NCBI RefSeq assembly: GCF_001189515.2
Contig: NZ_CP012069.2
Location: forward strand, 2,232,001 to 2,296,000
Length of the DNA: 64,000 nucleotides
DNA from: Olsenella sp. oral taxon 807
GTDB lineage: Bacteria; Actinomycetota; Coriobacteriia; Coriobacteriales; Atopobiaceae
Direction: 5' to 3'
The position numbers and the translations under genes were made by a program. How positions within the stretch are numbered: position 1 is the stretch's first letter; every line of letters starts with the position of its first letter. Positions 20,322 through 41,908 of the stretch are shown piece after piece. The notes beneath the pieces were generated by a model, which was given only the letters and a program-made list of their open reading frames with translations, did no database searches and was not told the DNA's origin.

Positions 20322-20587
20322 ATATATATCCTACCAGAGACGCCCTTGTCAAGTCAAGTCCCTGCGCATGAAAATACCAGCTCAAGGCTGGTTTTTACGG
20401 AAGCGGGCCGCGTTCGTGACCCTAAGGTGGCTAGTAGCCCGTTTTGGTACTAGCAATCAGCAAAACCTGGTACCGTCAGTCAGCAAGCCTGGTACTGCAG
20501 GTAAGGTCGTTTGGTACCGCCGGCATCGAACCTAGAGTTCCATGATGCACGCCTGATCCGGGGCGCGCTTCCATGGAAAGGGGCTTG

Positions 20588-24437: not shown

Positions 24438-25832
24438 CTACGAATGTGAATCATTGCTTGCATAGTGTTCGCTTACCCGCCATCTAGATACATTCATAAA
24501 CGTTGAATCCTCAAATTGATCGAGCACCTCATCAGGCAGCTTAAGTCTTTTCATAATGATTACGTAGGCAATTAATATTTGAGCATCGTGATGATCGACC
24601 ATTTGCTCATACTCGCTGTTGTTCTCCAAAGCGTGTGCGCTCGCATTCCTGAGTTTATTCTGCTCTTTTCGAAAACGCTTCCAATCTGGCACGATCCCCC
24701 TCCCCCATCTGTCGCTCTCTTCGTAAGCGTGGTCAAGCAGCATGGAATAGGAAGGCTGTCTTAGTAAGCCCAGCAGCCCCCGCGCCCTATCCCGGATAGA
24801 TTCATCCGCCACCCTCAGCATGGGGGTAATCAGGCATTCCAAATCCTTCTTATCGAAACACTCATCACACCCTGAACGAGCCAACGACTCGAACATCGAA
24901 CTTGCTGCAAAAAACTTTAGATCAACAGGAATTTTCCAAGATCCCAAAAGAGATACGAGCATCTTACTCGATTGGGACTCATCGCCTTTCATCTCCATCC
25001 ATCGGGTAACCACATCAAAAAGAATAGATTTAATGAGCTGAAATGGTACGGGAACACATTGATAATTTCTTATCGTGTTTCTGGTGAGAAACGAACCTCT
25101 GTGCACTTCAACAGGGCTACCATTGTCTTTGAACTTAACTCTAACCTGACGTATGGAGGTATACGCGCCAAAACAAAAGGATAAGAATGATTGGAATTTC
25201 CACAGCTCACATGACCAAAAATCATCGAGAGAAACCCCGTTCTTATAATCGACGTGAACTGTCGCGTAGGTCGAATACCTGAACCCCTCATGATCACTTT
25301 TTATCTTCCCGATACCAGAGTGAATTGTCATAGCACATCTATCGGATCGGTATACGTCGATGACTTCATTTTGTCTCCCACCCTCTATCACAAGGTTATC
25401 CTCTCGGATTTCCGGGCTAGAATGAAGGCCCAGCCATTTACGGAGACCCTCAATCTCGAAGTCAGCGGTACTTATGGGAATGCTGGGATCAAATTCATCG
25501 TGAGATGACAGCACCGTACTCGCTTCAAGGCTTTCACGGGTGTGTCCGGGAAACGAAAGCCCTACTCTGTTCGAGATGGCGTCGATAAGCAAAAGGTAAA
25601 TTCCATCCTGGGTAATCCCAAAGAGATATTCATACCGGTCAGACTCCATCCCGATTTCACAATGCCCCGTCTCTGCCAATTTGCGGGTCAGGCTGAGGTC
25701 CCCAGAAGGGATCTCGAGATGAACCCCTTTATCCTCAGAAAACTGGCAGAATCCTTCAGCATTATATTTCTTCGCCTTCAAGTCATCCCAGCTACGGTTC
25801 CACAGAGCCGTTTTCCAGACCTTATCTTCCAT
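24438..25832 (-). CDS. ApeA-like HEPN defence protein
   Basis: ATG 25832 follows GAGGTAAGG; an in-frame TTG at 25865 is a less likely start. The 464-residue product has a beta-rich N-terminal half (NAEGFCQFSEDKGVHLEIPS, GITQDGIYLLLIDAI) like the ApeA N-domain and an alpha-helical C-terminal half. The latter contains KLRNASAHALE at about residues 395-400, an RN-x3-H motif that is the catalytic signature of HEPN ribonucleases. ApeA proteins stop phage growth by RNA cleavage and abortive infection. It follows the BREX-like operon on the same strand after a 290-bp gap that could hold its own promoter. Confidence 0.6.
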   Translation of the reverse strand: MEDKVWKTALWNRSWDDLKAKKYNAEGFCQFSEDKGVHLEIPSGDLSLTRKLAETGHCEIGMESDRYEYLFGITQDGIYLLLIDAISNRVGLSFPGHTRESLEASTVLSSHDEFDPSIPISTADFEIEGLRKWLGLHSSPEIREDNLVIEGGRQNEVIDVYRSDRCAMTIHSGIGKIKSDHEGFRYSTYATVHVDYKNGVSLDDFWSCELWKFQSFLSFCFGAYTSIRQVRVKFKDNGSPVEVHRGSFLTRNTIRNYQCVPVPFQLIKSILFDVVTRWMEMKGDESQSSKMLVSLLGSWKIPVDLKFFAASSMFESLARSGCDECFDKKDLECLITPMLRVADESIRDRARGLLGLLRQPSYSMLLDHAYEESDRWGRGIVPDWKRFRKEQNKLRNASAHALENNSEYEQMVDHHDAQILIAYVIIMKRLKLPDEVLDQFEDSTFMNVSRWRVSEHYASNDSHS

Positions 25833-26122
25833 CCTTACCTCAATCTTTGCGTAGCAGTATGACAAAGCAGTATGACAACTATGGCCTGGTACCGGTTCCT
25901 CCTATGTGTTTTGGTTTTCCAGAGATGGTATAGAATTTTATGGTAGTGTGCCTCCTCGACACAACCTCATTCCAAGTATCTGCGTGATCTGTTACCCGGT
26001 CCATCATGGATCCGTTGTACACATCCCCCTTTCGTCAGCTCACCTCCCATGCAAGGATCTGAGAATCAATACTGTTATTATCAGTTCTGATGCGAAAACT
26101 CTGTGTTGGTACCAAAAAGGGC

Positions 26123-27265
26123 TCAGTCCCTGAGCAATATCTTTCCCAGGGCCGTCGCAATGGCATGGACGTCCCCTTCCCCATTGTGCTTCCCCAGCGA
26201 GATGCGGACTGTTTCTTTTGCCTCAGCCTCAGGTAGGCCGATGGCTTTGAGAACATGGGAGACCCTCGTGTTGGCACCATCGCAGGCCGAGCCTGTCGAG
26301 ACCGCGATCTTCATGAGATCAAGCCTGTGCAGAAGCATCTCGCCGCTGGCACCGGCAAAGGACAGGCTCATGAGCCCGGGCAATTGGTTCTCCCCGTTAC
26401 GTCGATACGGCACTCCCAGGGCAGCGAGGTCATCGAGCAAGAGGCGCTCGAGCCGCCCCAGGCGAACGGCGTTAGCTTCGATGGCGTCACAGTTCTCCTT
26501 AAGTGCCACGGCCATCGCAACGATGGAGGCTACGTTCTCGGTACCAGCGCGACGTCCCATTTCCTGGGCACCGCCGTTAGCATAGGGGGCAAGGGGCGTC
26601 CCGTCCTTGATGTAGAGAAACCCTATCCCCTTCGGTCCGTTGAACTTGTGCGCAGAGGCAGAGAGCATATCGACCCCCATGGCCTTCACGTCTATCTCTA
26701 CATGCCCCACAGCCTGAACTGCGTCCGTGTGGAAGATCGCCCCCTTCGAGTGGGCGATGTCACAGAGCTCGCCTATCGGCTGAATCGTTCCAATCTCGTT
26801 GTTGGCGTACATGCAGGACACGAGAGAGCCATCACCCAATGACATTTCGCGCAAGGCATCAAGAGCAATAACTCCTGTTCTGGACACTGGCAATACTGCA
26901 ACCCTATGGCCAATGGCGCTCATGGCCTTGCAGCTGTCTAAAACTGCATGATGCTCGATTTCTGAGGTCACGATTTCTCTCATCATATCGTCACGAAGTG
27001 CAAAGCCCTTAATTGCCCAGTTATCGCTCTCTGTTCCGCCAGAGGTAAAGACAATCTCCCCCGGGTCAGCGTTGATGCAAGATGCAATGGACTCACGCGC
27101 CTCACGCAATGCCCGTTTCACAGGGCGAGAGAAAGCATAGGGCTGAGAGGGGTTGCCGTACTCGTCCACAAGGAATGACGTCATGCTTGCATACGCCACG
27201 ACACTCAGTTGCGTAGTCGCGGCGTTATCGGCGTAGATGTATGAGTTCTTGGACACGCTGCTCAT
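26123..27265 (-). CDS. Cysteine desulfurase (IscS/DndA type) of the BREX-like operon
   Basis: The 380-residue PLP enzyme starts at ATG 27265, whose ATGA overlaps the upstream stop; ATG 27280 is possible. Landmarks are SYIYADNAATTQLS, TSEIEHHAVLDSC, HTDAVQAVGHVEIDV, the PLP lysine in SASAHKFNGPKGIGFLY, and the sulphur-carrying cysteine in VSTGSACDGANTRVSHVLK. It converts cysteine to alanine and hands a persulfide to acceptors. As the last gene of an operon with a PP-loop protein, it would supply sulphur for DNA or tRNA-like thiolation, as DndA does for DndC. A housekeeping role is less likely given the coupling. Confidence 0.85.
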   Translation of the reverse strand: MSSVSKNSYIYADNAATTQLSVVAYASMTSFLVDEYGNPSQPYAFSRPVKRALREARESIASCINADPGEIVFTSGGTESDNWAIKGFALRDDMMREIVTSEIEHHAVLDSCKAMSAIGHRVAVLPVSRTGVIALDALREMSLGDGSLVSCMYANNEIGTIQPIGELCDIAHSKGAIFHTDAVQAVGHVEIDVKAMGVDMLSASAHKFNGPKGIGFLYIKDGTPLAPYANGGAQEMGRRAGTENVASIVAMAVALKENCDAIEANAVRLGRLERLLLDDLAALGVPYRRNGENQLPGLMSLSFAGASGEMLLHRLDLMKIAVSTGSACDGANTRVSHVLKAIGLPEAEAKETVRISLGKHNGEGDVHAIATALGKILLRD

Positions 27266-27462
27266 TGGAACAGTGCACATCCCTCATCCTTAAACTCCTC
27301 GATCTTGTCAAGAAGATCATCGACGCTGCAGTCAAGATAGGCTGCAAGGCAATCGAGGCACAGGACGTCATCGTCGCCCTCCCCAAGCAGTTTCTTCGAA
27401 ATGCCCACCTCGTCCTTCGTGAGCGACTCCTTATAACATGACTTACAGGCTACGTTTTTCAT
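27262..27462 (-). CDS. Small CxxC protein of the BREX-like operon
   Basis: The 66-residue product reads MKNVACKSCYKESLTKDEVG, then LCLDCLAAYLDCSVDDLLDK and ends EGCALFQ. Two CxxC pairs plus two further cysteines suggest a zinc ribbon or a sulphur/iron-sulphur relay. The start lies 20 bp inside brxL and the stop overlaps the desulfurase start, so translation of the three is tightly coupled. That position suggests it delivers sulphur from the desulfurase or stabilises it. Similar small CxxC proteins are widespread and uncharacterised. Confidence 0.7.
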   Translation of the reverse strand: MKNVACKSCYKESLTKDEVGISKKLLGEGDDDVLCLDCLAAYLDCSVDDLLDKIEEFKDEGCALFQ

Positions 27463-28912
27463 AGTAACTACTGTCGGCTTTCAGGTCTGGGATGTCCTTG
27501 CCCCGATACTCGACGTCCATCAGACCAAGTTGCATTCTAATTGTTGCGCGCATCTTGCTTGCACGGCGCAGGCAATACCGACTAAAGTCACGAGGGCTGA
27601 TGTCCTCAGGCCGCTTGACGTTGGGAAACAGAAGTTTGAGGTATGCGGTTGTGATTCGCTTGATCGCTTCCGTATCGCGGGTATCAGCTGCGTCAGGCAC
27701 CAGAACGAGCTTGTCCACGATGGCCCGATATGATGCATCGCTTCTAAGCTCATGGAGAATGGAGCAAAAATACTCAGAGTTAAGCGCCCAACCCGATATT
27801 TTGAGATCATCGTTCATACGCGGTATATCCCAGCCTTTGATGAAGCCATGGAATCGCTCGATCAGAGCTGACTCGTGAAACACGCTCGGTAATTCCTGGA
27901 ACATATCCGTCGTACCGTCTTGGTCCATCACCCCTTTTGAGATGTTACCGCAGAGGATCATTCCAGCAGATGCGGTACCCTCATAGCTCCCGACCGTAAA
28001 CACGCCAGACTCAAGATATCCCTTCAGTGCAGCCCTCATCTCATCGACGTCCGTAAAGGATATCGTCTGAACCTCATCAAGGGTGATGAAATCGTGACCA
28101 GCGACAAGACCTTCCGTATGTCGAGAGATGTCATAAAACATCTTGGCCCTGCTCATCACTCCGCCAGACGAAAGCCAACCGTAACGGCTAACCCTGCCAA
28201 ACAGGTATGATTTGCCCGTGCCCTTTGGCGCCAATTCGATCAGGTTCAACCGCTTCTCACAAAACGGAAGAAGCCTGGTCAGCATGGTAAGCTTTTCTTC
28301 CTCGCTCCTATAGCCACGTGGGTTGTAGTCGATTGCGCCCAAAAGCACGTCAATCCACTCGTCAGTGGTGAATTGATTCCTCACGCCCTTGTAGAAGTCA
28401 AGATTAATGCTATACGGTCTGAAGTTCTTGAAACTGACCAGACGGATCTTTCCGGGCTGCCTTGGAGTCATCTCGTCATCAGGCGGACGGTAGCCAAGCT
28501 CAAGCATACCCCACACCTCACGACCACTCACAAGATCGTCCTTCGCTTGCTCCCAAACAAAATCCTCTATGATTGTCTCTTTCGCAGTAAGACCAAAGTC
28601 TGGGAGTGAGAAGGATACTTCTCCACTTCTGACGTCCACCTCGATGGATATCTTAGCGAGTATTTTGACACGCTCGTTGTCCTTCACGATACGGCTTTTT
28701 ATGGCAATCCAATCACTTTTTCGTGGAATGGACCGCCTGACGAACTCGGTAAGCTCATCGTTGTCAAAATGACCGCTCTCATCTTCGAACCGCCTCAGCA
28801 GCCAGTCCCTCATGAAGGAAGGTAAGCTAAGGGCAGAGAAGAAATTGCTAGTACGAAGATCCTTGTAGACGACCATGTCGTCGAAGTATGTTTTGAGCTT
28901 ATCAGTCATCAT
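27443..28912 (-). CDS. brxL: BrxL-like AAA+ protein without Lon protease domain
   Basis: The 489-residue product begins MMTDKLKTYFDDMVVYKDLR, as BrxL proteins do. An N-terminal domain precedes the AAA+ module: Walker A LAPKGTGKSYLFGR (residues 228-235), GGVMSRAKMFYD and Walker B HDFITLDEVQTI, followed by an arginine-rich lid. Classical BrxL is near 680 residues with a C-terminal Lon-like protease; here only about 90 residues follow the AAA+ region, so the protease is absent. BrxL is a DNA-translocating ring in BREX. The gene lies 6 bp after pglZ. Confidence 0.8.
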   Translation of the reverse strand: MMTDKLKTYFDDMVVYKDLRTSNFFSALSLPSFMRDWLLRRFEDESGHFDNDELTEFVRRSIPRKSDWIAIKSRIVKDNERVKILAKISIEVDVRSGEVSFSLPDFGLTAKETIIEDFVWEQAKDDLVSGREVWGMLELGYRPPDDEMTPRQPGKIRLVSFKNFRPYSINLDFYKGVRNQFTTDEWIDVLLGAIDYNPRGYRSEEEKLTMLTRLLPFCEKRLNLIELAPKGTGKSYLFGRVSRYGWLSSGGVMSRAKMFYDISRHTEGLVAGHDFITLDEVQTISFTDVDEMRAALKGYLESGVFTVGSYEGTASAGMILCGNISKGVMDQDGTTDMFQELPSVFHESALIERFHGFIKGWDIPRMNDDLKISGWALNSEYFCSILHELRSDASYRAIVDKLVLVPDAADTRDTEAIKRITTAYLKLLFPNVKRPEDISPRDFSRYCLRRASKMRATIRMQLGLMDVEYRGKDIPDLKADSSYYEKRSL

Positions 28913-28918
28913 ACCGCC

Positions 28919-31057
28919 TTACATAAACCAATCATCATCATTAGTGGTCGCGGAGCGCTTCTGAACCTCAAATTCGGCGACGCCGATACGGTCGTCTTTC
29001 TCGTAGACCTCGCACGTATAGGTACCGGCCTTCGTCACGCCATCGAAGCGCACGATATGACGGTTCTCATCGACCTTTCGCGCCTCGTAGACCCTGCCGT
29101 TGAGCCGCACAGTGACATTAGCCAAGTGCGAGGTGCTGAAGAGCTCTATTTCAGGCGTTTCCTCGTAACTTGCGTAAGCAACTTTGGTCAAGCAGGTTAT
29201 CTCGACGCTAGCGTCACGCAACGACAGCTCTATAACAGGAACGAGGACCTCTTCCAAGCTCGCGCCCCCATGTACCTCCACACTTGCCTTGCGACCGCCC
29301 TTGAACCGATCGTAATTTGCAAGCACCCAGTAACCGTTCTCTGCTGTAGCGCAGTCTGGCTTCTCATCGATTTCGCTTTCCGGGCAGCATCTGCCGGAAT
29401 GCTCGCCCTTGGTCGTCATCTCCCATTTCGCCTCGCTATTTGCGATCACTGCGAGCCGACTGGCACCATGGTCCGATGCGATAACGATCTTTCGGTACTT
29501 GCGAGCGCTAAGTTGTGTTTGAGCGAATTCAAGCACCTCGTCAAGGATGCTGAGCTCGCGTACGAGATGTATGGGAAGCTTCTCAGATTCGTAGTTGAAG
29601 CGGTCCTCGCCGTTATGCTTGAGCTTGTCGAAGTCTTTCCTGGAGGTCTTGTCGCCTTTCCATTCCTCATAAAAGCTCTTATTCATACAGGTCAGCGTTG
29701 GGAGCGAGGCCCTGGCCACATGCGTGCGCATGCTGAGGCCAAGATCATGCGAGCGTTGTTGGATGTAGCCGAGATACTCAACCCCGAGGGCGTCAACCCA
29801 ATACAATTGAGCGCCTTCACCCTCAGTCTGCTCAACGATGGCGTTCCTCGTGTCAAGAGCGTTGTATGCGCGATTTCCATCCTTAGCAAGCATCACCACC
29901 TCGTCGAGAAAGGACGACTCGATGGTATTCATGAGCTTCTGTCGCTTGTAGCGCGAGAAGTAGCGGTTGAATAGATCGTTATTCCTGCAGGCGAAGGCGT
30001 AGTCGCAGAGGTACTTTCCCAGCGCCGGATATATTGTCTTCAAGTCTGGTGGAATCGCTTGGCTCTCACAGATACTCTCAATGATCGCATCTCTCTCGAT
30101 GACGGTGTTGTCCGTCAGGTAGTGGATCCTCTGCTTGCCCTTCTGCTTCGTCTCGGCAACGTATAGAGCCATGTAGGACTCACTGGCATCGTGCAGAAGT
30201 TGCTTTCTCTCTGAGTAGAGCTCGGGGAACTGCGGAGATTCACAGGGAACGTGTAGTATTGCCCTGGCTATCATTTTCTGGTAGGTCTCGTAGTCAGGTG
30301 ACTTTTCGATCACGAGCTGAAGGTAGGGATTCTTTGTCCCATTGATGAGGACGTTCAGATAGAAACGCCATTCCCGGTATCCAGACTCCTCAAGGCTATC
30401 GTCCTCCAGAAATTCTCGCCAGCATTCTTCGGGGAGAACAGACTCATCAACCCCCGTTATTCTGCCATCCTTCTCGAGGAGCGTGTGGCAAGAACAAATT
30501 TTTTGGACGTTCTTTAGCGACAGTGCCGTCTTTACCCTGACTTCGCCATGCAGACCCTTCTCGAGGTGTGACAGAAATCGCTTGAACCCCTTGTCAGCGT
30601 CACAGGGAATGCTCTCGTCTATGCTCACCACAGAGTAGTCGAGGATCGATTGGACGCTTGTGTAACGCCGCTCGTTGAACTTCCTGTCCGCCTCATTGAT
30701 ACGCCTGATGTCTTCCCTGATACCACGACACACAACGATAAGCTTATGTGGTAGCAGCAGGTCTCTGAGCTTGCCGAGGAGGGTACTGCTGCCTCCGAGG
30801 GCTATGCTCTCACCGACACCGAGCAATATGGTGCTGCTCTCGATTTTCTTAATATCCGTGATGAGTCGGTCCACATCGGGAAAGGAGTCGGTCCTGCAGT
30901 AGTCGCTCACGCGAACGATAGAGAGGCCATTCAATGCCTTGACAACGGATGAGTATTCCGTGTTTCCGTCCGCTAGCACAAAGAATGGATAAGGCATATC
31001 GCTCTTGCGATATGCAGCTATCCTTTTGAGCGCATCAGACAACGAGGAGGGCTTCAT
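28919..31057 (-). CDS. pglZ: PglZ, alkaline-phosphatase-superfamily BREX protein
   Basis: The 712-residue product starts at ATG 31057, overlapping the brxC stop (ATGA). The phosphatase-like core is marked by YWVDALGVEYLGYIQ (421-430, metal ligand Asp), SLPTLTC (about 451-457, candidate nucleophile Thr), VIASDHGASRLAVI (528-531, Asp-His metal ligands) and GEHSGRCC. The N-terminal 400 residues are helical and less conserved. PglZ is the gene shared by all BREX types and is needed for defence in characterised systems. The C-terminal part is an immunoglobulin-like beta domain. Confidence 0.85.
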   Translation of the reverse strand: MKPSSLSDALKRIAAYRKSDMPYPFFVLADGNTEYSSVVKALNGLSIVRVSDYCRTDSFPDVDRLITDIKKIESSTILLGVGESIALGGSSTLLGKLRDLLLPHKLIVVCRGIREDIRRINEADRKFNERRYTSVQSILDYSVVSIDESIPCDADKGFKRFLSHLEKGLHGEVRVKTALSLKNVQKICSCHTLLEKDGRITGVDESVLPEECWREFLEDDSLEESGYREWRFYLNVLINGTKNPYLQLVIEKSPDYETYQKMIARAILHVPCESPQFPELYSERKQLLHDASESYMALYVAETKQKGKQRIHYLTDNTVIERDAIIESICESQAIPPDLKTIYPALGKYLCDYAFACRNNDLFNRYFSRYKRQKLMNTIESSFLDEVVMLAKDGNRAYNALDTRNAIVEQTEGEGAQLYWVDALGVEYLGYIQQRSHDLGLSMRTHVARASLPTLTCMNKSFYEEWKGDKTSRKDFDKLKHNGEDRFNYESEKLPIHLVRELSILDEVLEFAQTQLSARKYRKIVIASDHGASRLAVIANSEAKWEMTTKGEHSGRCCPESEIDEKPDCATAENGYWVLANYDRFKGGRKASVEVHGGASLEEVLVPVIELSLRDASVEITCLTKVAYASYEETPEIELFSTSHLANVTVRLNGRVYEARKVDENRHIVRFDGVTKAGTYTCEVYEKDDRIGVAEFEVQKRSATTNDDDWFM

Positions 31058-34000
31058 TGCCGAGCCTCTTTCTTTGCGATGATCTCAATACCCACCTCGA
31101 CGTTTTCCCTAACGAGTCTCTTGAGATACGTCTTGGCATGAGTCGTGTCCATACCGTCGATGAGGTCGATGGCGGCTTGGTTGGCACCGAGCCGATATTT
31201 CGACTCCGCCAACGAGCGTACAGCGTCACTGACCTGCTTACTGTCGCACCATTGGTAGACGTTCTCAAAGGCATTGCTTTCGAGGTATCTTCTGACCTCC
31301 TCGTTGTCCGTGAGGATCGATCGGTATTTTCCTATCACCTCATGGGAGAAGGCAATCTCCACCCGCTCGTCAGATGACATGAGGCTCAGGAAAACTGGCT
31401 TGTTCTCGAGGTATTTTAGTGCCCCATCGACCTGCTTAATGATGGGATTCTCCTTGTGAAGGATTGCAAAGAACGTACGTGCTGCCTCCCGCTCCTCAAC
31501 GGGGACAAGGGCAAGCAGAGGCGTCTTGTGCTGCTTGGACCAATCGTGGGCATCCTTTGAGTGCGTGCTTTCCTTCCATAGCTTGTGCAGCTGAAATTTT
31601 TTCTGATTCGTCCTGATCTCTTCAGCGTGTTCCTGCACGCTCTTTTCAAATGCGGACTTGTCACCCATGAATGAGGACTTAGGTAGCTTGGCATAGAGCT
31701 TATTGATATCCGCCGCCCCAAATCCATCTGTATACGTAGAATAGATCTCAGCAAAGATATCTTTCTGTCTGTCCAACACATCCTTCAGGGCACCTGCCTT
31801 GGTGACAAGCTGTTCGAGGAAGGCCTCCCTCTTGTCGTGAGAGATCTCGCCATTCTTTGCTATTTCGTAGATACTGGATATCAGCTGCTTGAGATCCGGA
31901 CACTTCTCTATCAGAACCAAATACGGTATCTTTATATATTTTGTGGTCTCGTTCCATTCCCTCATACAGCTTGAGAAGCTGTTCCTCTTCGTGATGAGCT
32001 GATTGCTGCGTTCAACTATGCAGTAGTCAACGAGCAGCTTACGAAGCTCGTTCTCACCGTCCTCCTGATCCCACAGCCAGAGGGCATCACCAGACCCGAT
32101 TTGCCTCTTGACATCAGCAAGGACGTCCTCGACACCTATTGCTTCTGCGACCTTGAGAATCTGCCCGCCTTCAAACGAATGCAGAAACTCTCGCATCGCC
32201 AACGCGCCATTTTCTCTGGTAAAGAGCTTTGTCAGATTGGAAGCTGCGGTCGGAACCTCTTCGAGCATTCTGCCAAAGTCGTTGGTCAGCGCAGGGACGT
32301 TCCCGCTCGCGTTCTTGCTCACAATTTCAGACAGTTTTTCAATGAAGGGATCGAGCGCATTCGTGTCGATGCTCCTAAGGCACCAAATCGGGTAACCAAA
32401 GTTTGTGAGCTCATTGCGAACGCGGGCGGCAGTCGGCTCAACAGATAGGCTATCCGATACCCCGAAGGCCTCATGAGCGAAGTCTACAAAGCGCTTCTGC
32501 TCTTGCGTCATCACCTCGATGTACTCGTCACGATAGTTCCTTACTGGCTTTACCTTATGCTTCATATAGGCGCCAATGAGTTCCGCAAGCCTTTCAACGG
32601 TCATTCTGCCACCGGCATCTCCTGAAGCGCCACTGCCATACATGAAGGTACCGCTTGCATACTCTTTGAGCAGAAATCCAGTCAGGTACGCGTAGAGGTT
32701 ACAGGGCATGAAGCCACGCTCTTCCAGGAAATCATAAATCTCACTTATAGAGATACGCGCGTCCCTGTCGAGACGCTCCTTGATGAGTGCATCAATCTGT
32801 ACCTTCAATTTACTGATGGGAAGACTCTTCAGTTGAGGGTCGTTCCAGTATTCAGGTGTATTTTGCACGCCCAACAAAAGGCGTGAGATGGCGTCTTGCT
32901 GATAGATGCCGCCATACGCCTGCTGTATGCCGACCTTTGCGCCAAACGACAGATTTCTGGATGAAAAAAAGGCTTCTGAGACCTCAATACGATCAAAGGA
33001 GAGGGGGTACCTCTTGATCACCAGGTCCTCAAGAACGCCACTCACCCTCATCGTAGATGCACAGTGCTCCTTGAGCTGCCCGACGTATACATCAAACGCT
33101 CCGTTAGAGACGTCATTCCTCCAATCGGCAAGAACGTCCTCAGCGCTCTTCTTGTGGTTGTCAGCAAGCTTGCCATCTTTGCTCCGCCAGTATTCTTCAT
33201 TGGCCGCAAACGAGGCCCAACGGCCAAAGCGATCCGCGCCGAGCACACTCTCCGACGCGTCTATGAATACAATGTCTTTAGAGTTGGGGTCTGCTGTCGC
33301 CTCTTTTATCTTCTCGCGAATACGTACCTGTTCGTTTTCGTTTCGCGCAAAGCACATGACTGCTCTAGACCTATACGTTTGTCTCTCATTGATGATCTTG
33401 TTGACGGTCGGCCTAAAGTCATCGACGCACGCCAACTTTACCTCGTAGCGTGCCCGTATGGACGGTTTGTACGTGATAGCGGATTCTAGCTGCGCATCGC
33501 TAATCAGACGCGCTGTCCTCGTTTCAGCGAGTCGCTTCCTCCTGATAGCGTCGATTTGGACCTGATCACCCGAGACGGCAGCCGCTGCGTACTCATCACC
33601 TTCTTCGGTTGGCTTAATATACAGGATCCCCATCTTGACAAGCCGGTTATTGGCAACGCTTACTGCGCGGTTGTTCTCCAGGCTATCGTCACCCTCAAAG
33701 GCGAGGTTGAGATTCTTGTCATTGGGTCGAAGAATGCTGACGCTATTGTTGAGTTTCTGACTGATGGCCTGCATCATCAAGATAACCTTAAGAACACGTT
33801 TCTGCTCACCATTCAGCTTGTGCTCGTTGTTCGGATATGTATCAAGAATTGTGGCAACGATAAAGTCGAGATTACTCCTACCGCTCATGAAGGTGTTCTC
33901 GTCAGTGCCCTTCTCGTAGAAGAAGTTCCACAGGAAGTCGATAGTGAGAACATCGCCATTGTCTGGTCCATGCGTGTTAATGAACCACTGAAACGCTTGG

Positions 34001-35226
34001 AGATCATCGGTATCCGGATTCTTTATGAAGTTAAACATGCTCCTCTGGTTTGAGGCGAAGGTCGTAGATATGTACTTGAGGAGCAGGGCCGCCATCGGAT
34101 GGATCGGGAACAGCTTTGTGAGGGCCTTATCAGTGGTTCCAACCACAGCGGCGACCTGCCCGCGCGAAGATGTCATTCGGCTGTTGAGGTCATCGGATAG
34201 TCCTGCCCATTCGTCCTGTGCGGCAGGTCTCACTTTGAGCGCATGTCCAATCAGGTCAAAAGCCACGGAATCGGGCATCTCTATCTCGCGCCTGACGAAG
34301 CGATCGCGCACGATTTTGAACGCCTGATTTCCCTCATCGACAAGAGATCCAGACATATGGGTGACAATCATGAGGTAGAAAGGCTTCTCGTTGGATAGCT
34401 CTGCCAGTTTTTGAAACTCGTCAAGTGTTGTCCTGTTATTCTTGAAGTACGAGGAGAATTCGTCCCAAATGAAGACGATAGCCTTCAGCTTGTTTTGTTC
34501 GATAACGTCCTTGAGCCAAGCGGTGAGGTCATTCATACTGATGTCGAACGTACGGATGCCCTCCCTATCCGCCATGTCAAGGATCTGGCTAATGAGCTCG
34601 TCCGCACCCTGCTCTAGGTTCTCGAGGTGGGCGATAATGTCATCTGCAGTATTGCCTGCAAAGCTGCCGAGTCCCACATATTGAGGCATGCTCATATACA
34701 TGCCAAAGATCTTCTTATGGGCAGAGATCCAAGATGCGATCTTTCCGCGAAGCGTCCTCTCTCCCCTGTAGTCGTACCCTAAGTCATGCAGCGCCTTCGT
34801 AACCTTTTCGAACACGGTCATAACGAGTTTACGGATGGAGTCCACCTCACCAGACCCATAGCAGAATACTGTGACGATATGATCGCCCTTGTGAGCGAGG
34901 AGCTTGTCCCTGAGGTCCGGCTGCCTCTTGAGGTTATCGTATTCGTCGAAATAGGAGTTAAGCTCCTCAGGAGAACACTCCAGGAGGCTCTTGAGCGTCC
35001 ACGCGACCCTCGACTTACCGGTACCGTAGGCGCCCTCTATCCAGATGCCCTTCTTGTCAGTATTGGTCTCCCTGGCAAGCATGCGCTCGGTTGCGCGCAG
35101 CAGGTCAACGAAGGTCTCGTGAGGAAAGGTCCCGTCCCACCGGCTGTTCGGATCGCTGATGGAGTTAGGATTGATCTCCGGATAATAGTTCTCGTCGATA
35201 TCAAAATAGTCGCTGTAGGTATCCAC
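31054..35226 (-). CDS. brxC: BrxC/PglY-type giant ATPase
   Basis: The 1390-residue P-loop ATPase starts at GTG 35226 with AGGAG nine bases upstream, two bases after the brxP stop. It opens MDTYSDYFDIDENYYPEINP; Walker A is IEGAYGTGKSRVAWTL (65-72) and Walker B is KAIVFIWDEFSSYF (about 249-256). The rest is long alpha-helical sequence, as in BrxC/PglY. It probably forms the ATP-driven scaffold of the BREX complex on DNA. No nuclease motif is evident. It ends overlapping pglZ. Confidence 0.85.
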   Translation of the reverse strand: MDTYSDYFDIDENYYPEINPNSISDPNSRWDGTFPHETFVDLLRATERMLARETNTDKKGIWIEGAYGTGKSRVAWTLKSLLECSPEELNSYFDEYDNLKRQPDLRDKLLAHKGDHIVTVFCYGSGEVDSIRKLVMTVFEKVTKALHDLGYDYRGERTLRGKIASWISAHKKIFGMYMSMPQYVGLGSFAGNTADDIIAHLENLEQGADELISQILDMADREGIRTFDISMNDLTAWLKDVIEQNKLKAIVFIWDEFSSYFKNNRTTLDEFQKLAELSNEKPFYLMIVTHMSGSLVDEGNQAFKIVRDRFVRREIEMPDSVAFDLIGHALKVRPAAQDEWAGLSDDLNSRMTSSRGQVAAVVGTTDKALTKLFPIHPMAALLLKYISTTFASNQRSMFNFIKNPDTDDLQAFQWFINTHGPDNGDVLTIDFLWNFFYEKGTDENTFMSGRSNLDFIVATILDTYPNNEHKLNGEQKRVLKVILMMQAISQKLNNSVSILRPNDKNLNLAFEGDDSLENNRAVSVANNRLVKMGILYIKPTEEGDEYAAAAVSGDQVQIDAIRRKRLAETRTARLISDAQLESAITYKPSIRARYEVKLACVDDFRPTVNKIINERQTYRSRAVMCFARNENEQVRIREKIKEATADPNSKDIVFIDASESVLGADRFGRWASFAANEEYWRSKDGKLADNHKKSAEDVLADWRNDVSNGAFDVYVGQLKEHCASTMRVSGVLEDLVIKRYPLSFDRIEVSEAFFSSRNLSFGAKVGIQQAYGGIYQQDAISRLLLGVQNTPEYWNDPQLKSLPISKLKVQIDALIKERLDRDARISISEIYDFLEERGFMPCNLYAYLTGFLLKEYASGTFMYGSGASGDAGGRMTVERLAELIGAYMKHKVKPVRNYRDEYIEVMTQEQKRFVDFAHEAFGVSDSLSVEPTAARVRNELTNFGYPIWCLRSIDTNALDPFIEKLSEIVSKNASGNVPALTNDFGRMLEEVPTAASNLTKLFTRENGALAMREFLHSFEGGQILKVAEAIGVEDVLADVKRQIGSGDALWLWDQEDGENELRKLLVDYCIVERSNQLITKRNSFSSCMREWNETTKYIKIPYLVLIEKCPDLKQLISSIYEIAKNGEISHDKREAFLEQLVTKAGALKDVLDRQKDIFAEIYSTYTDGFGAADINKLYAKLPKSSFMGDKSAFEKSVQEHAEEIRTNQKKFQLHKLWKESTHSKDAHDWSKQHKTPLLALVPVEEREAARTFFAILHKENPIIKQVDGALKYLENKPVFLSLMSSDERVEIAFSHEVIGKYRSILTDNEEVRRYLESNAFENVYQWCDSKQVSDAVRSLAESKYRLGANQAAIDLIDGMDTTHAKTYLKRLVRENVEVGIEIIAKKEARQ

Positions 35227-35228
35227 TG

Positions 35229-37529
35229 CTATTGCTCCTGCCCCACAAACAGCCCAAGAACGTCCTGCGAGGTCTTGTTCTCTCTTAGCTGTATCTTCTC
35301 TGAGTCATGGGTAAATGTCGCGTAGAGGTAATCTGGATAACCGGCAGAAAGCCCATAAACGATCTGTTTCACCGCATCAGAATCAAGGCCAAATAGCCTT
35401 GACGGGCATATTCCGTTTGAGACTATGCTCTCATCGAGCAGCCTGCTGAGCGTGAATTGGTAATATCCGTCACACGCCTCCGCAAACCGGTAAAGAGCGT
35501 AGAGGATAACCCTGTCATCTCTCAATGAGGCCTTGTACCTCGTCAAGCTTGTGATTTGGCGACCCTTCTTTTCGACAGCTCCAAAATTCAGGGCCGTGCC
35601 AAGAGGTAGGTCACAGAGCCTTCCAAATGCCTTGGTAATGGACTTGGCGTCTTTCTCACTCATTCCAGTCTCGCTGAGAAGATCCTCGAGGTACGTGCGC
35701 GGCATCCGTTCGTTAACGGGCATGTTGTCAATGTACCACCGAATCTGAGGGTTTTCGTAGACAAGTTGAATCAATATCAGTCCCCACGCACTATCGCTTT
35801 CCCATCCAATGCGCTTGGTGAGCAGCATAAACTCTGTGACCTTGTTCTTTTCTGCGAGCTGGGCGTCTGATAGGAACCTCTTGAACATGGAGATCTGCAT
35901 CGGCCCAAGTGAGTTGTTCTGAAAGAACTCATCACCCCTTTCGTAAAAGTCACGCACCCACTCATATTTGGGTGCATGATCGGCAAAGGTATTGAGACTC
36001 TTCATGACTCTTCCCCCGTTCTTGGGCAGCTGTAATGAGTGATATAAGAGGCATCCATCTTCGATCTGGCGGCATTTCCCGCACTTCACACAGCGGTCAT
36101 CTATATGTAGTCCACCCTCGAAGCTAATATAGCCATAGGGACAGTTTGCCTCGCACACGCGACAGGCACCACAGTAAGCCACCTTGTGGAAGATCTGCTT
36201 GACCTGCTTGGCGATAGAAGTCTTATTCAGCTCCGCCGATATCCGTGCGACGAGCCCCTCCTTCCGCTGCTCGACATACAGCGAGGTCGGAGGATCAGCC
36301 AAGGTCTTCATCCATTCGGTCCAGGAGGTCTTGGGCTTGGGGATGATCATGTAGAGGTACCCGTCCTTGACCTCCTCGATGTAGTTGGAGACGTTGCCCT
36401 TGATGTCACGTCCGTTCCTGCGGCTAATCCAGCCACCGTTTGTGACGTATGTGTCGATGGACTTGTCATCGATAAGCTCTCGAATCGTATCCGTGTATCG
36501 GTCGATCTCCTTACCGTACGCAGCGTGTCTGAAGTAGTCAGCCTTCCCGCCGCCCATAGGGCAGAGGAGGCATCCGGCGCGTGAGTTGCCCTTTTTATAC
36601 GCGTCGTTAATCGGAAGTGCATTTGCAAAAATGTAGAGCCATATCTCAGCAGAGGACCATTCAAGAAGGGGGTTGAGCGAATACTGTCCACGTTGCTTCT
36701 TGCCATAGTTCTCATATTCGTAATCGGCACGCCTGACGCTCTCCTGCGCCCGAACGCCGACGAAATCAGCACCTACGTAGTCGCCCTTTGCCAACACTTC
36801 GCGAATTTTCAGCGTTTGGGGAGCAGACTTGTGCACGGAGCAGCACCACCGCAGTACGTTTGATGGAGGCCCGAACAACCTCCATGAATCCATCGGGTCG
36901 AAGTGGCTACGAGCCCTATGGAATTCGATTCCGTCTTTCCTGCAAATTGCCTCCTCTTGGTCAATGATCCGATATGTATCGGAAAACTCCATTCCGGTAT
37001 CACCGAAGACAACCATAAAGCTGCTGCGCGGAAGAGCTCGCTTCACCAGTTCAAGTAGGACAACGCTATCCTTGCCACCCGAGAACGCAACGTGAAAGCA
37101 GTCCAATTTATCCTTATAACGCTTGTAGTAGTCATAGATCTTCTTGACCGTGATCTGCTCCACGATGGAGAGTGCATCCTTGTTGCGCTCGACCATTGCA
37201 GGAATATCAACTGCGAGAAGCGTTGTGCCCTGCGGCAACGCGAGGGTTGCGTCCCCATCATCAGCCTTAGTGTGTACAAGCTCGAGAACTGGTGCCTGGC
37301 AAAGTGCCCCACCCTTGATCTTTGCCACCTTGGTTCCCCGGTAGATGTAGTTGCACGCTTCCGACCACATGTACGGAGTCTCGTTTTGCTGGTCAAATCG
37401 CCAGTATTTGTCCATGCCCAAAAGGTTGAGTTCAGCAGCATAGACTGGCCTCGGTTCATTGGACAACTGTGAGATTCGCTCACCCAGAAGGAGCCCGCCG
37501 GTCTCTATGTCATAGGTATAGTCGTACAC
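35229..37529 (-). CDS. brxP: BrxP-like PAPS-reductase/PP-loop protein with Fe-S motifs
   Basis: The 766-residue product starts at GTG 37529. The PP-loop FHVAFSGGKDSVVLLEL lies at residues 150-155, followed by FGDTGMEFSDTYR, LRWCCSVHKSAP and AGCLLCPMGG, the pattern of PAPS reductases and DndC. Further on come two clusters, CGACRVCEANCPYGY (C453, C456, C459, C463) and CVKCGKC plus C493, typical of [4Fe-4S] ferredoxin domains. Such proteins adenylate a substrate and insert sulphur. In type 4 BREX this gene replaces the methyltransferase, so it is the best candidate for a DNA-modifying enzyme. The target atom is unknown. Confidence 0.8.
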   Translation of the reverse strand: MYDYTYDIETGGLLLGERISQLSNEPRPVYAAELNLLGMDKYWRFDQQNETPYMWSEACNYIYRGTKVAKIKGGALCQAPVLELVHTKADDGDATLALPQGTTLLAVDIPAMVERNKDALSIVEQITVKKIYDYYKRYKDKLDCFHVAFSGGKDSVVLLELVKRALPRSSFMVVFGDTGMEFSDTYRIIDQEEAICRKDGIEFHRARSHFDPMDSWRLFGPPSNVLRWCCSVHKSAPQTLKIREVLAKGDYVGADFVGVRAQESVRRADYEYENYGKKQRGQYSLNPLLEWSSAEIWLYIFANALPINDAYKKGNSRAGCLLCPMGGGKADYFRHAAYGKEIDRYTDTIRELIDDKSIDTYVTNGGWISRRNGRDIKGNVSNYIEEVKDGYLYMIIPKPKTSWTEWMKTLADPPTSLYVEQRKEGLVARISAELNKTSIAKQVKQIFHKVAYCGACRVCEANCPYGYISFEGGLHIDDRCVKCGKCRQIEDGCLLYHSLQLPKNGGRVMKSLNTFADHAPKYEWVRDFYERGDEFFQNNSLGPMQISMFKRFLSDAQLAEKNKVTEFMLLTKRIGWESDSAWGLILIQLVYENPQIRWYIDNMPVNERMPRTYLEDLLSETGMSEKDAKSITKAFGRLCDLPLGTALNFGAVEKKGRQITSLTRYKASLRDDRVILYALYRFAEACDGYYQFTLSRLLDESIVSNGICPSRLFGLDSDAVKQIVYGLSAGYPDYLYATFTHDSEKIQLRENKTSQDVLGLFVGQEQ

Positions 37530-37534
37530 CTTGC

Positions 37535-39682
37535 TTATCCTGCGGCATCGCGAAGCACTCGAGCCTGCTCCGTCACTTTCTTGACAAATATCGTCTTCTT
37601 GACCACGAAACCGAGTCTCACAAGATAATCGCCAACTGCGTGTTCTTCCAACTTCAAGGAGCTGTTTGCGAGTACCTGAGCAACTACGTCATTGTAGTCT
37701 CTGTCATCATTTGCGAGACAGATGACTCCCACGTTTGCCGTTCGAGCAGGCGACCCCCCTTTGATGCAGTAGCGCCTACTGAATCGTTTCACATAGCTCT
37801 CGAGGAGGTAGAGATTCCACGGCCGCCCAACGTAAGGAAACGAAGTGAAGCTCGTTATCACCTTTATGGGGGCGACGCCCCCACTGACGAAAAGTGCCAG
37901 GGCATCGTCGATAGCCTCCACATCGAAGTCAATGGTACTATCCTTCACGAACGTATCCCTGTCAACCCGAACCATCGTCTCGAAAGCTACGGGCAGCATT
38001 GCATTGCGTGCTTTCCCAAGCAGCTCTGCCTCAAACTCGTCCATCTCGTCGACGGTCATCGCATCGAGAGTCAGGCAGCGTGCCCGCATCACTTCATTTC
38101 TCGAGAGATTCCCGCCCTTGGGCAAGATGATCTGGCCTTTTCTGTCAAAGGTCCTTGCGAGCACTTGTTGATACAAGGCGTTACGTATCGCCATTTCGGA
38201 GAGCTGGGGGTTTCCACCAAGCGACCGAGTGATGTCGATGGTACCGAGAGAGGCGAAACCCTGCGAGGTGATTTCGCCCGCCACGAAGTTTGGCGCCTCC
38301 TTCAGCTCCAAAGGATCCAAGTTGATGCGACTTACCATCGCATACTCGTTACGCTTGATCAGGACGAACAGCTTGCTCGCTGAGAGGGTAGACTTTATCT
38401 TCTTGTACGGCAAATACGGCAGCCTACCCTTGAGCTCATCAGCGCTAAGCTGCTCATCGTCTGCAAAAGCACGCAGGATCTCATCCTCTATGCTCACGCC
38501 CCCTGTCGTGACGCAGTAATGCTCGTTGTAAAGCAATTTGATTCCCGTAGACCTGATGATCTTCTCTAGAATCTCTGCAGAGTTGACCTTCATATCTGAG
38601 TAATAATCCGGGTTGGCCTCATAGAGCTCCTGATAGTAAAAGATCCTCTGACCAGCCTTGATTGAGTCCTCAAGCAACTGCCGGACCGCTTGTTTAGGCT
38701 CCTCTGCAATGAGATACGTCTTACCACTCCACTCAATCCCGCCGTTTTTTAAGATCACATCAGAGATCGCCTTTTTGCTTGGCGCTTCCTCATCAAAGTT
38801 CTCATGGTACATGTGAGCAAATCTCTTTATATCAATGGTCGAGTCAAGACGTATCCCATTCGGATAGCCCTTTGACAGCGTATCGAGTATTCTTCGTTCA
38901 AGACCCGGGTCGATCGTTCGAGTGGCTTGCCTGGCGCGATCATGACCGTATCCGCCAAGGCGCGACGGGTTGCCCATAGCCTCTATGAACAATATGAAGC
39001 GCTCAAGAGCACCGCTTAGTCGGCTGTATCGCTCATTACTATATGTAGAATTAGTGTCTTTTAGTAGCATTTGAGCGTTCGTTTTGATCTCATGAATATT
39101 CGCGTTGCCGTAGAATATACGCCCCTGATAGCCGTGCGACCTGGCAAACCTCTCAACGGCATCGATTGCAGATGAGTTGCTCACTGCCGCATGCTCCGTG
39201 AGGCCCTTCGACATCATCCACCGCTTGAAGCCATTTGCATCTATTGAATAGACTCGATTTTCAGCTGAGTCAACCTCATTGGAACGAGTGGGGAAGACCT
39301 CATGCTTGGCATCAGTCACAGGTGACACTGTCGGCCTGCGAGTACTGCTACGCCCGCGCAGAGCCGCAGCAATGGCAGAGCAGAATCTTGCAGGGTCACT
39401 TCGGTACAGCCTGACAACCTTTTGAAATAGTATCGGGGGATGTGGTATGCCACTCTCGCCATCAGTCATGACATACTCCATGACGCTGTACTGGTAGCTG
39501 ATGCCAGTGGTGTTGCGAAACGAGTTATCAGTTTGGATCCCATGCAGCTCAGCACGCCGACGAAGAGCTTTCGAGACGTACTCAACAGCTTGGGATCGTG
39601 TCAACCTCCCGTTTTCGACTTGAAGGTAGGCATAAAGCAGTAAGGCTGCCTCCTGTTTGTCAAAGCGCGTTCTAACAGCCAT
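37535..39682 (-). CDS. Large unrecognised first protein of the BREX-like operon
   Basis: The 715-residue product starts at ATG 39682 (MAVRTRFDKQEAALLLYAYL) after GGAAG; a longer frame from 39715 is possible. The N-terminal 90 residues (RLTRSQAVEYVSKALRRRAE, GISYQYSVMEYVMTDG) resemble a helical module I associate with several defence proteins. The middle and C-terminal parts include repeated winged-helix-like stretches (SADELKGRLPYLPYKKIKST). No nuclease, methylase or helicase motif is visible. It heads the operon, 5 bp before brxP, so it probably recognises or licenses the substrate. Function unknown. Confidence 0.7.
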   Translation of the reverse strand: MAVRTRFDKQEAALLLYAYLQVENGRLTRSQAVEYVSKALRRRAELHGIQTDNSFRNTTGISYQYSVMEYVMTDGESGIPHPPILFQKVVRLYRSDPARFCSAIAAALRGRSSTRRPTVSPVTDAKHEVFPTRSNEVDSAENRVYSIDANGFKRWMMSKGLTEHAAVSNSSAIDAVERFARSHGYQGRIFYGNANIHEIKTNAQMLLKDTNSTYSNERYSRLSGALERFILFIEAMGNPSRLGGYGHDRARQATRTIDPGLERRILDTLSKGYPNGIRLDSTIDIKRFAHMYHENFDEEAPSKKAISDVILKNGGIEWSGKTYLIAEEPKQAVRQLLEDSIKAGQRIFYYQELYEANPDYYSDMKVNSAEILEKIIRSTGIKLLYNEHYCVTTGGVSIEDEILRAFADDEQLSADELKGRLPYLPYKKIKSTLSASKLFVLIKRNEYAMVSRINLDPLELKEAPNFVAGEITSQGFASLGTIDITRSLGGNPQLSEMAIRNALYQQVLARTFDRKGQIILPKGGNLSRNEVMRARCLTLDAMTVDEMDEFEAELLGKARNAMLPVAFETMVRVDRDTFVKDSTIDFDVEAIDDALALFVSGGVAPIKVITSFTSFPYVGRPWNLYLLESYVKRFSRRYCIKGGSPARTANVGVICLANDDRDYNDVVAQVLANSSLKLEEHAVGDYLVRLGFVVKKTIFVKKVTEQARVLRDAAG

Positions 39683-39950: not shown

Positions 39951-40196
39951 ACGTCTAATCCTTAAGCTCTCACATAACTTTTGATATGGGAGCTTGAATG
40001 AGTGAACCGCAGCGTACATCCGAAACTTGGACTCAGCAAGCGGGCTGTACCCCCAAGATCGAGGCAAACAAGCATAGGTGCTATCCTGGAGCGCTGTGCC
40101 TCAACCCCACCTGTCACCTCCCGTCTTACGACAAGAGAAACACCGCTCGCGAGGAGCTGGCACATCTCGACAAGGGTGCGCATGGCCAACGCCAAG

Positions 40197-40266
40197 TGCA
40201 GCACACTGCAAAATCCATACCCATTGCAACACACTGCACTATCTGCGATACTTGCAGCACATTGCA
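40197..40266 (+). promoter_or_regulatory. Three-copy operator array upstream of hipBA
   Basis: TGCAGCACACTGCA (40197), TGCAACACACTGCA (40225) and TGCAGCACATTGCA (40253) are near-palindromes spaced exactly 28 bp apart. The last ends 23 bp before the hipB start. HipB-type antitoxins bind several palindromic operators in their own promoter. Confidence 0.75.
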
Positions 40267-40289
40267 CAAGCCTAGGCACAGGACGAACC

Positions 40290-40604
40290 ATGATCATATC
40301 CTCAAGCGTCGAGGCGGGCGCGCTCATAGGCTCGCTGCGCGAAATGCGGAGCCTGAGCCGCAGGGAGCTCTCTGCGGCATCGGGCGTCCCCTTGCGAACC
40401 GTGTACGCGGCCGAAAACGGTGAGCTGCGCAACATGAGCATCGACAGGGTCATCTCGCTCCTGAGCGCCCTTGGGGCAAGCCTTAACGTCGAGGTCGAGG
40501 CGACGAACGCCGACGAGACGCGCGACGACGAAACCAACATCCTGGTGAATAAGGCGGCACGCGGGGCATACGACCTGGCAGACAGCTGGGGGATCGGACT
40601 GTGA
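40290..40604 (+). CDS. hipB: HipB-type antitoxin (XRE HTH)
   Basis: The 104-residue product starts at ATG 40290. Residues 10-65 form an XRE helix-turn-helix (GALIGSLREMRSLSRRELSA, then PLRTVYAAENGELRNMSIDR). The C-terminal tail is acidic and probably contacts the toxin. The stop overlaps the hipA GTG. It would repress through the three upstream palindromes and neutralise HipA. Confidence 0.8.
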   Translation: MIISSSVEAGALIGSLREMRSLSRRELSAASGVPLRTVYAAENGELRNMSIDRVISLLSALGASLNVEVEATNADETRDDETNILVNKAARGAYDLADSWGIGL

Positions 40605-41908
40605 GTAGCGGCATCCGCAAGATGGCGCTCTACATTGCGGGTCGTCTCGCCGGGCACGTTCGGCAGGACGAGAACGGCGCCCTCAGCTTCTCCTATGCCC
40701 CAGACTATCTTGGCGCTCCGGTCTCGCTCTTTATGCCACTCTCGCCCATGACGTACCGCCAGCACGTGGTACGCCCCTACCTCATGGGCCTCCTCCCGGA
40801 CGATCCGACCGTTCGCGCCGATATCGCGGACAGGTATGGCTGCTCGGGCGAGAACCCCTTTGCCCTGCTTTCGCACATCGGCCTCGACTGTCCCGGAGCC
40901 GTACAGATCGTCCCAGAATCGGAAAGGGCACTCATTGACAACCGGGTGGGACACCTCATTGAGCTGTCCGCCAAAGAAATGGAGGACACGATCCGCGTCA
41001 TGCGTCTGAGATCGTCCAGCCCCTGGCAAACCTCTAACGGGCAATCCGAGAGATGGTCCCTGGGTGGAGCGCAGTCCAAGATCGCGTTGCGGCTGACGCG
41101 AGGCACATGGTACCGCTGCGAAGGGGACGCGGCGACCACGCACATACTCAAGCCAGGTGTGTCCGGCTACAAGAACCAGGCGCTCGACGAGCACCTATGC
41201 CTACGGCTCGCCGCCTCGATCGGCCTCCCGGCAGCTCACACGTCCTTTGTGTCCTTTGGCGCCGAGAGCGCCGTCGTGATAGAGAGGTACGACCGCGTGA
41301 CGGGCGATGACGGTTCCGTCACGAGAATTCACCAAGAGGACCTCTGCCAGGCCCTCTGCGTGGACCCAAGCCGCAAGTACGCCGAGCAGGGAGGCCCCTC
41401 TACGCCGGATGTGCTGGCCCTGCTGGCAAAAACGGGCAGACACGCACCGGCCAACCTGAGGACGTTTACGCTCTTCCTGATCTTTAACTACCTCGTAGGC
41501 GCAACCAATGCGCACGCGAAGAACTACTCCCTGCTGTTGGGCACGCGCGGGCTCGCAAGACTCGCGCCGCTCTACGACGTGGCGTCCATTGCGCCCTACC
41601 AGACGCCTGCGCCCAGGCGCCGAAAGCCCCTGCGAGCCGCCATGTCCATAGGAGGCGAGAACCGCTTTGGCAGGCTCGGGCAAGGGCATCTCCGCAAGCT
41701 TGCCGCTGACCCCGCCCTTGCAAACAGCGGCGTAGGATACGATTGGCTCATGGCGTCCGCAAAGCGAATGGCAGAGATGGTACCGGGCGCACTGCGCGAA
41801 GTCGTGCACGAGTCCGCCAAGGATGGACTTGCCGGAATCGAGGTCGTGGGCCCGCTTCTTGAGCGGGAAGTATCCGCAAACTGCAGGCGGCTTCTCGAGA
41901 GGCTATAG
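40601..41908 (+). CDS. hipA: HipA-type toxin with altered catalytic site
   Basis: The 435-residue product starts at GTG 40601. HipA landmarks: WSLGGAQSKIAL (153-162, glycine-rich loop), HILKP (Lys184), VVIERYDR, IHQEDLCQA and LAPLYDVASI (metal-binding Asp). HipA phosphorylates glutamyl-tRNA synthetase to induce dormancy. The catalytic loop, usually D-x-H-x-KN, here reads ATNAHAKNYS with Asn303 in place of the catalytic Asp (codon AAT 41507-41509). The product may therefore lack kinase activity or be an evolved repressor partner. The frame is otherwise intact. Confidence 0.8.
   Translation: MSSGIRKMALYIAGRLAGHVRQDENGALSFSYAPDYLGAPVSLFMPLSPMTYRQHVVRPYLMGLLPDDPTVRADIADRYGCSGENPFALLSHIGLDCPGAVQIVPESERALIDNRVGHLIELSAKEMEDTIRVMRLRSSSPWQTSNGQSERWSLGGAQSKIALRLTRGTWYRCEGDAATTHILKPGVSGYKNQALDEHLCLRLAASIGLPAAHTSFVSFGAESAVVIERYDRVTGDDGSVTRIHQEDLCQALCVDPSRKYAEQGGPSTPDVLALLAKTGRHAPANLRTFTLFLIFNYLVGATNAHAKNYSLLLGTRGLARLAPLYDVASIAPYQTPAPRRRKPLRAAMSIGGENRFGRLGQGHLRKLAADPALANSGVGYDWLMASAKRMAEMVPGALREVVHESAKDGLAGIEVVGPLLEREVSANCRRLLERL

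Follow-up and report, generated by a model that had tools for sequence, protein, structure and literature searches.

The stretch of DNA analyzed here, a 64,000-nucleotide (nt) segment of Olsenella sp. oral taxon 807 (contig NZ_CP012069.2, positions 2,232,001 to 2,296,000; hereafter the window), carries on its minus strand, at 26123 to 39682, an operon that by gene content and profile matches is an intact type 4 BREX (bacteriophage exclusion) system. An earlier note on this DNA had described a continuous minus-strand operon, and the seven open reading frames (ORFs) indeed lie where that note placed them, each open and of full length, with near-zero spacing. From the first gene to the last, they are as follows:

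37535 to 39682, minus strand: P7, 715 amino acids (aa) counted from the ATG at 39682
35229 to 37529, minus strand: brxP, PP-loop (SGGKDS) sulfurtransferase; PADLOC BrxP, 763 bits
31054 to 35226, minus strand: brxC, type 4 ATPase, 1,390 aa; PADLOC BrxC, 965 bits
28919 to 31057, minus strand: pglZ, type 4 PglZ, alkaline-phosphatase-superfamily effector; NF033445, 391 bits
27443 to 28912, minus strand: brxL, ATPase, no Lon protease domain detected; TIGR02688, 411 bits
27262 to 27462, minus strand: mini, 66 aa, CxxC...CxxC plus an invariant tail cysteine (GCxLF)
26123 to 27280, minus strand: cysteine desulfurase, class I (IscS/NifS/SspA/DndA); Aminotran_5, E = 1e-72

The intergenic distances, in the same order, are 5, 2, -4, 6, -20, and about -4 nt; because neighbors are separated by no more than 6 nt or overlap, a single transcription unit is likely. 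The longest ORF of P7 (726 aa) uses a TTG start and reaches 39715. The desulfurase frame opens at 27280 and contains, as its sixth codon, an ATG at 27265 that shares the sequence ATGA with the stop codon of mini; if translation begins at this codon, the start/stop coupling of the desulfurase described earlier holds.

All four core genes match type 4 profiles, and the type 4 BREX assignment of the earlier note holds. The PADLOC BrxP match covers residues 2 to 762, the PP-loop domain matches Pfam PAPS_reduct (E = 9e-29), and profile searches found no methyltransferase among the seven genes. Residues 517 to 760 of BrxP match a second PADLOC BrxP model (265 aa); Pfam DUF4007 is not among the listed matches, and the C-terminal region is taken to be DUF4007/BrxA-like. 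BrxC aligns over residues 3 to 1385 with the PADLOC BrxC-PglY model and scores far under the cutoff of the general NCBIfam BrxC model. PglZ reaches 423 bits with PADLOC and clears the cutoff of 140 set for NCBIfam NF033445 (BREX_PglZ_4); its residues D422, T456, D529, H530, and H596 are near-invariant across 76 aligned sequences. BrxL, with Pfam BrxL_N and BrxL_ATPase domains, scores 742 bits with PADLOC BrxL and exceeds the TIGR02688 cutoff of 329. Curated NCBI cutoffs are passed by two of the four core genes, namely, PglZ and BrxL.

The nearest solved structure to the PP-loop domain of BrxP is the adenosine 5'-phosphosulfate (APS) reductase 2goy, and C229/C230 and C320/C323 of BrxP align with the CC...CxxC cysteines of that enzyme, which we take to bind its cluster. 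The SGGKDS ATP loop and the cluster cysteines are near-invariant over the loci surveyed below, and eight more invariant cysteines, at positions 453 to 493, form a block that looks like a two-cluster ferredoxin of the 2x[4Fe-4S] type. The ECG motif (ECGxH-type tail) of sulfate assimilation reductases is not found in BrxP, and no other invariant cysteine fits; therefore, BrxP does not appear to be a sulfate assimilation enzyme. The profile search likewise assigns it to BrxP, so a placement with such enzymes, which the earlier note had named as counting against its reading, did not result.

Sister loci were collected by scanning one genome per species with an alignment of six BrxP proteins (alignment A4). 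Of 130 confirmed loci, the best 80 were kept; adding the window and four loci from IMG/VR gave a survey set of 85, in which components were detected by iterated profile searches. The BrxP proteins that seeded the survey are close to that of the window (37 to 56% identity), and neither P7 nor mini played a part in the sampling. Across the 85 loci, P7-like proteins were found in 84, BrxC in 81, PglZ in 77, BrxL in 75, mini in 71, and the desulfurase in 60, with the gene order kept in genome loci of many phyla. Where the locus is complete downstream, defined as at least 1.3 kb after brxL (67 loci), mini is present without exception, even in the 10 loci without a desulfurase. Each of 20 whole genomes has exactly one copy of mini, and the P7 core is single in 19 of them, with a second P7 relative in the remaining one. 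Several loci are near-duplicates (e.g., L062 and L114). The survey was seeded by close BrxP proteins, so that the near-universality of P7 and mini applies to the branch of the window only: in a distant Methanosphaera type 4 operon (28% BrxP identity), no P7, mini, or desulfurase was seen. In one further locus (L172, 4656 to 10010), two apparent copies of a 450-aa ORF, probably insertion elements, separate the N-terminal part of brxP from the main part.

The desulfurase scores 402 and 401 bits with the PADLOC SspA and DndA models, and its structural relatives in the PDB include SspA (6m4j) and DndA (3vax). It possesses the pyridoxal-phosphate lysine motif SAHK and the active-site cysteine loop STGSAC; among its relatives, 55/55 have the lysine motif (SxHK) and 45/55 match a simple pattern for the cysteine motif. 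The window desulfurase is 35 to 63% identical (median, 55%) to 55 other BREX-4 desulfurases, compared with 32 to 39% for three other homologs in its own genome, and because of this greater proximity it seems to move together with the operon. It is present in 57 of the 67 loci complete downstream of brxL, so its absence from all sister loci, the second outcome that the earlier note had named as counting against its reading, was not observed either. PMC12839542 reports a cysteine desulfurase in 255 of 457 type 4 taxa and regards it as possibly the sixth core component.

We consider it likely that the operon encodes a complete type 4 BREX antiphage system that places a sulfur mark, most probably phosphorothioate, on self DNA and acts against phage DNA lacking the mark. 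This judgment concerns what the system is and which chemistry it performs; the parts played by P7 and mini stand apart from it and are weighed separately below.

The first gene, described in the earlier note as an unknown 715-aa protein, turns out to be a conserved member of the system: 84 of the 85 loci have a P7 homolog upstream of brxP, and the exception, L107, is truncated by the end of its contig, the sequence starting just 174 nt ahead of the brxP frame. The window P7 matched no family in Pfam, PADLOC, NCBIfam, PHROGs, or the PDB sequences, and a single-sequence search of plasmids and viral contigs gave no match, probably because P7 diverges too fast. The long forms range from 454 to 1,456 aa and have in common a C-terminal core, about 460 aa long. 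In 82 such proteins, the core is preceded by zero (33 proteins), one (22), two (22), three (3), or four (2) copies of a roughly 100-aa module, and in many cases also by an N-terminal domain.

An AlphaFold2 (AF2) model of the window P7 (mean predicted local distance difference test score, 89.5; predicted template modeling score, 0.65) consists of an N-terminal helical domain, a core-binding-like module (residues 145 to 235), and a tandem winged-helix core from about residue 259, with a conserved motif, FPxxGxxWNxxLLESY, near residue 616. The best match of this run of winged helices is the SelB C-terminal fragment 1lva (Z score, 8.3; root mean square deviation [RMSD], 8.6; 198 residues), a score that speaks more for the type of domain than for common descent. 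The module resembles the tyrosine-recombinase core-binding domain of VchIntIA (2a3v; Z score, 7.5; RMSD, 3.1; 81 aligned residues; Foldseek/VIA) and XerA-type domains (Z scores, 7.1 to 7.2), all module Z scores being under the tool's caution level of 8. Pfam Phage_int_SAM_5 and Phage_int_SAM_1 match 6 and 5, respectively, of 78 P7 relatives, with E values up to 0.05. Other P7 proteins contain parts resembling the RNA polymerase alpha C-terminal domain, sigma-70 region 4, or HARE-HTH, and in one surveyed genome the core-binding-like module also forms the N terminus of an AAA protein beside a McrBC gene.

P7 is also the fastest-evolving component. Among 47 pairs of loci with BrxP identities of 65 to 80%, the median identities are 84.5% for BrxL, 79% for mini, 68% for BrxC, 63% for the desulfurase, 53% for PglZ, 47% for the P7 core, and 27% for the N-terminal part of P7. 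In one pair (L060 and L081), BrxP is 90% identical and the N-terminal part of P7 is 27% identical. Because of this rapid divergence and the swapping of DNA-binding modules on a conserved core, we tentatively propose, with slightly less than even confidence, that P7 is a target recognition subunit that selects or reads DNA sites. Two points detract from this proposal: no core-binding-like module was detected in 33 of the 82 long proteins, and fast divergence fits an invader sensor equally well. The alternative, which we regard as possible but somewhat less so, is that P7 is a sensor or effector control subunit whose modules detect phage DNA, or structures bound to phage DNA, and activate PglZ. 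The near-random N-terminal modules of close relatives are compatible with such a role, the literature ascribes fast-evolving domains of this kind to sensing, and DUF4007 would already provide a BrxA-like DNA-binding unit. On the other side, every module recognized in P7 is of a DNA-binding kind, and P7 is the first gene, directly upstream of brxP; both properties favor target recognition while being compatible with sensing.

In two more distant type 4 loci, other genes occupy the place upstream of brxP: one (L174, 5873 to 7930) encodes two core-binding-like modules and a HARE-HTH-like part, and the other (L173, 5852 to 8008) is an unrelated ORF that matches RAMA weakly. These genes could be stand-ins for P7.

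In 62 aligned mini sequences, C6, C9, C35, and C62 never vary and C38 hardly does; the five-cysteine pattern fits 71/71 mini proteins, with the fifth cysteine near the C terminus in GCxLF. Four of the cysteines are presumed zinc ligands. Mini is tied to the sulfur enzyme by its fusion to BrxP-like enzymes in phages and is probably a working partner of BrxP. It is possible, at somewhat less than even odds, that the tail cysteine hands sulfur to BrxP. This role is weakened by the structure and sequence searches with mini, which returned nothing significant, and by mini-like proteins with the same tail cysteine (L154, 4998 to 5270; L155, 4752 to 4991) whose genes directly follow an alpha-galactosidase-like gene where no BrxP is in the vicinity; because of this neighborhood, the mini family has other contexts as well. 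We find it rather doubtful that mini is instead a regulator of operon transcription of the helix-turn-helix (HTH) type, outside the sulfur chemistry. A passage of PMC12839542 does describe a small zinc-finger protein as resembling HTH regulators, and the AF2 model of mini is three-helical, with weak structural matches mostly to HTH proteins; however, the Foldseek E values behind this resemblance are all at least 0.75. Moreover, the tail cysteine is invariant, beyond the presumed zinc ligands, mini is kept in all 10 desulfurase-less loci, and it is fused in frame to the C terminus of phage BrxP-like enzymes in two lineages.

These phage enzymes are BrxP-like proteins that lack the C-terminal BREX part and are fused to a mini domain; the two lineages are 58 to 59% alike, and in the first, another BrxP-like gene and a free-standing mini often come after the fusion. 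Phage BrxP-like PP-loop/ferredoxin enzymes with no BrxC, PglZ, or BrxL nearby were seen in L066 (10001 to 13538) and also in L063 to L065, L067, L069 to L071, L158 to L165, and L167. L066 is identified as a phage by its exonuclease, helicase, endolysin, tail fiber, and reverse transcriptase genes, and a DNA methyltransferase gene is close by. In viral contigs, no relatives were found with BrxP alone or with the PglZ pair, and the BrxP pair did find some. PHROGs labels the phage BrxP-like enzymes as 3'-phosphoadenosine 5'-phosphosulfate (PAPS) reductase metabolic genes; the mini fusions suggest that some of these may be DNA modification genes. Phage PAPS reductases are linked to escape from Dnd in a passage of PMC10945359, which cites others. 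The combined proposal, in which P7 is an exchangeable specificity subunit whose module arrays decide the phosphorothioated sequence, mini is a sulfur carrier acting through its tail cysteine, and the BrxP-mini fusion of some phages perhaps thiolates their own DNA to escape, is unlikely to hold in all its parts.

What the sequence analysis establishes is the gene set, its intactness and conservation, the motifs, and the predicted domains and folds; from these, together with the literature and what is known of the families, the working of the system can be outlined as follows. As is known for its family, the desulfurase would take sulfur from cysteine, forming a persulfide. The sulfur would pass to BrxP, possibly through the tail cysteine of mini, the tentative step discussed above. 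BrxP would activate the DNA phosphate with ATP, by adenylation, and insert the sulfur, and BrxC would be the loading ATPase, as published for type 4 BREX as a whole. P7, with its interchangeable DNA-binding modules, might pick or read the DNA sites, subject to the doubts raised above, and PglZ and BrxL would form the restriction side, as published for BREX in general. We consider it improbable that the operon makes no phosphorothioate DNA, that is, that the substrate of BrxP is RNA or a thio-base or that the enzyme serves sulfate assimilation. The proximity of the PP-loop domain to APS reductase, cluster cysteines included, speaks for this possibility; the missing ECG motif, the extra ferredoxin-like and C-terminal parts, the strong BrxP profile match, and published reports of phosphorothioation by this BREX type in other bacteria speak against it. 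Still less probable is a desulfurase that is a chance neighbor with a general role in iron-sulfur metabolism: it is missing from 10/67 loci and 44% of the published taxa, and housekeeping enzymes can replace the BREX-4 desulfurase according to the literature, but it holds the same position in 57/67 loci across phyla, overlaps its neighbor start to stop in the window, and is closer to BREX-4 desulfurases elsewhere than to its own-genome paralogs.

The sulfur-marking reading, central to the earlier note, is thus well supported but already published: phosphorothioation in place of methylation is described for type 4 BREX in a passage of PMC12839542 (January 2026, Rakesh and Krishnan), and brxPCZL is listed among the phosphorothioate-making gene families in a passage of PMC11931770, which credits Yuan et al. 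2024. The cited literature reports both phosphorothioate in the host DNA and exclusion of phages for other strains. Type 4 BREX lacks the methyltransferase that carries site choice in the other types, and a conserved, modular, fast-changing DNA-binding gene beside brxP makes the question of how its sites are chosen directly testable. Mini, in turn, is a concrete candidate for the step between the desulfurase and the sulfurtransferase.

The surroundings of the operon resemble a defense island with mobile elements. Directly downstream, at 24438 to 25865 (minus strand), lies a gene whose product has an N-terminal ApeA domain (PF18862, E = 3e-19), and because of this domain, a second antiphage gene may be present there. 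Transposase genes flank the operon on both sides; the regions 18495 to 22938, 40601 to 41908, 44165 to 44980, and 45962 to 47035 contain transposase and IS21-type genes, a HipA-like gene, and a PADLOC "cll" match. An ORF upstream of the operon (39962 to 41194, minus strand) was rejected as a chance frame opposite the hipA-like gene. Over 396 genomes of the class, BREX_PglZ_4 scored above its cutoff in the genome of the window only, and of 396 genomes from the phylum, a single one contained P7; because P7 was not found in the other 395, the operon was probably acquired horizontally here. A BrxP search of the phylum yielded mostly ordinary PAPS-reductase-like proteins and was left out of the counts. 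Elsewhere, a Treponema saccharophilum plasmid (L033, 11500 to 23420) carries a gene row with a BrxP-like part, a separate DUF4007 gene, a BrxC/SspC-like ATPase, a class V aminotransferase, a helicase, an ATPase, and a phospholipase-D-like gene, which is a different sulfur-marking type of system.

Compared with known systems, P7 would work like HsdS of type I restriction-modification, a DNA-reading protein in which a constant framework holds the variable modules for recognition and whose partner enzymes are conserved; the likeness is one of working only, as P7 is built of winged helices and core-binding-like modules, and Specificity_I gave one weak match (E = 0.0098) among 78 P7 relatives. With Dnd, the operon shares a desulfurase, DndA-like in the window, that would supply a PP-loop sulfurtransferase, whereas the DndC match is weak (26 bits) and neither DndD nor DndE was matched among the operon genes. 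The likeness to Ssp comprises the desulfurase (SspA), the PAPS-reductase-like SspD, the ATPase SspC, and a possible counterpart of the DNA-binding SspB, with weak but significant PADLOC matches to the SspD and SspC profiles. In contrast to Ssp, no operon gene matched SspE or SspFGH, PglZ and BrxL being present instead, and BrxP has the additional ferredoxin-like and C-terminal parts. Published BREX type 4 (brxPCZL) shares with the window operon all four core genes, the desulfurase, and the small zinc-finger protein, which a passage of PMC12839542 reports as often accompanying the desulfurase. The main text of that paper describes no P7-like component and treats the zinc finger as a frequent desulfurase companion, whereas in the branch of the window, P7 is near-universal and mini is independent of the desulfurase, two features that appear to be new relative to that text.

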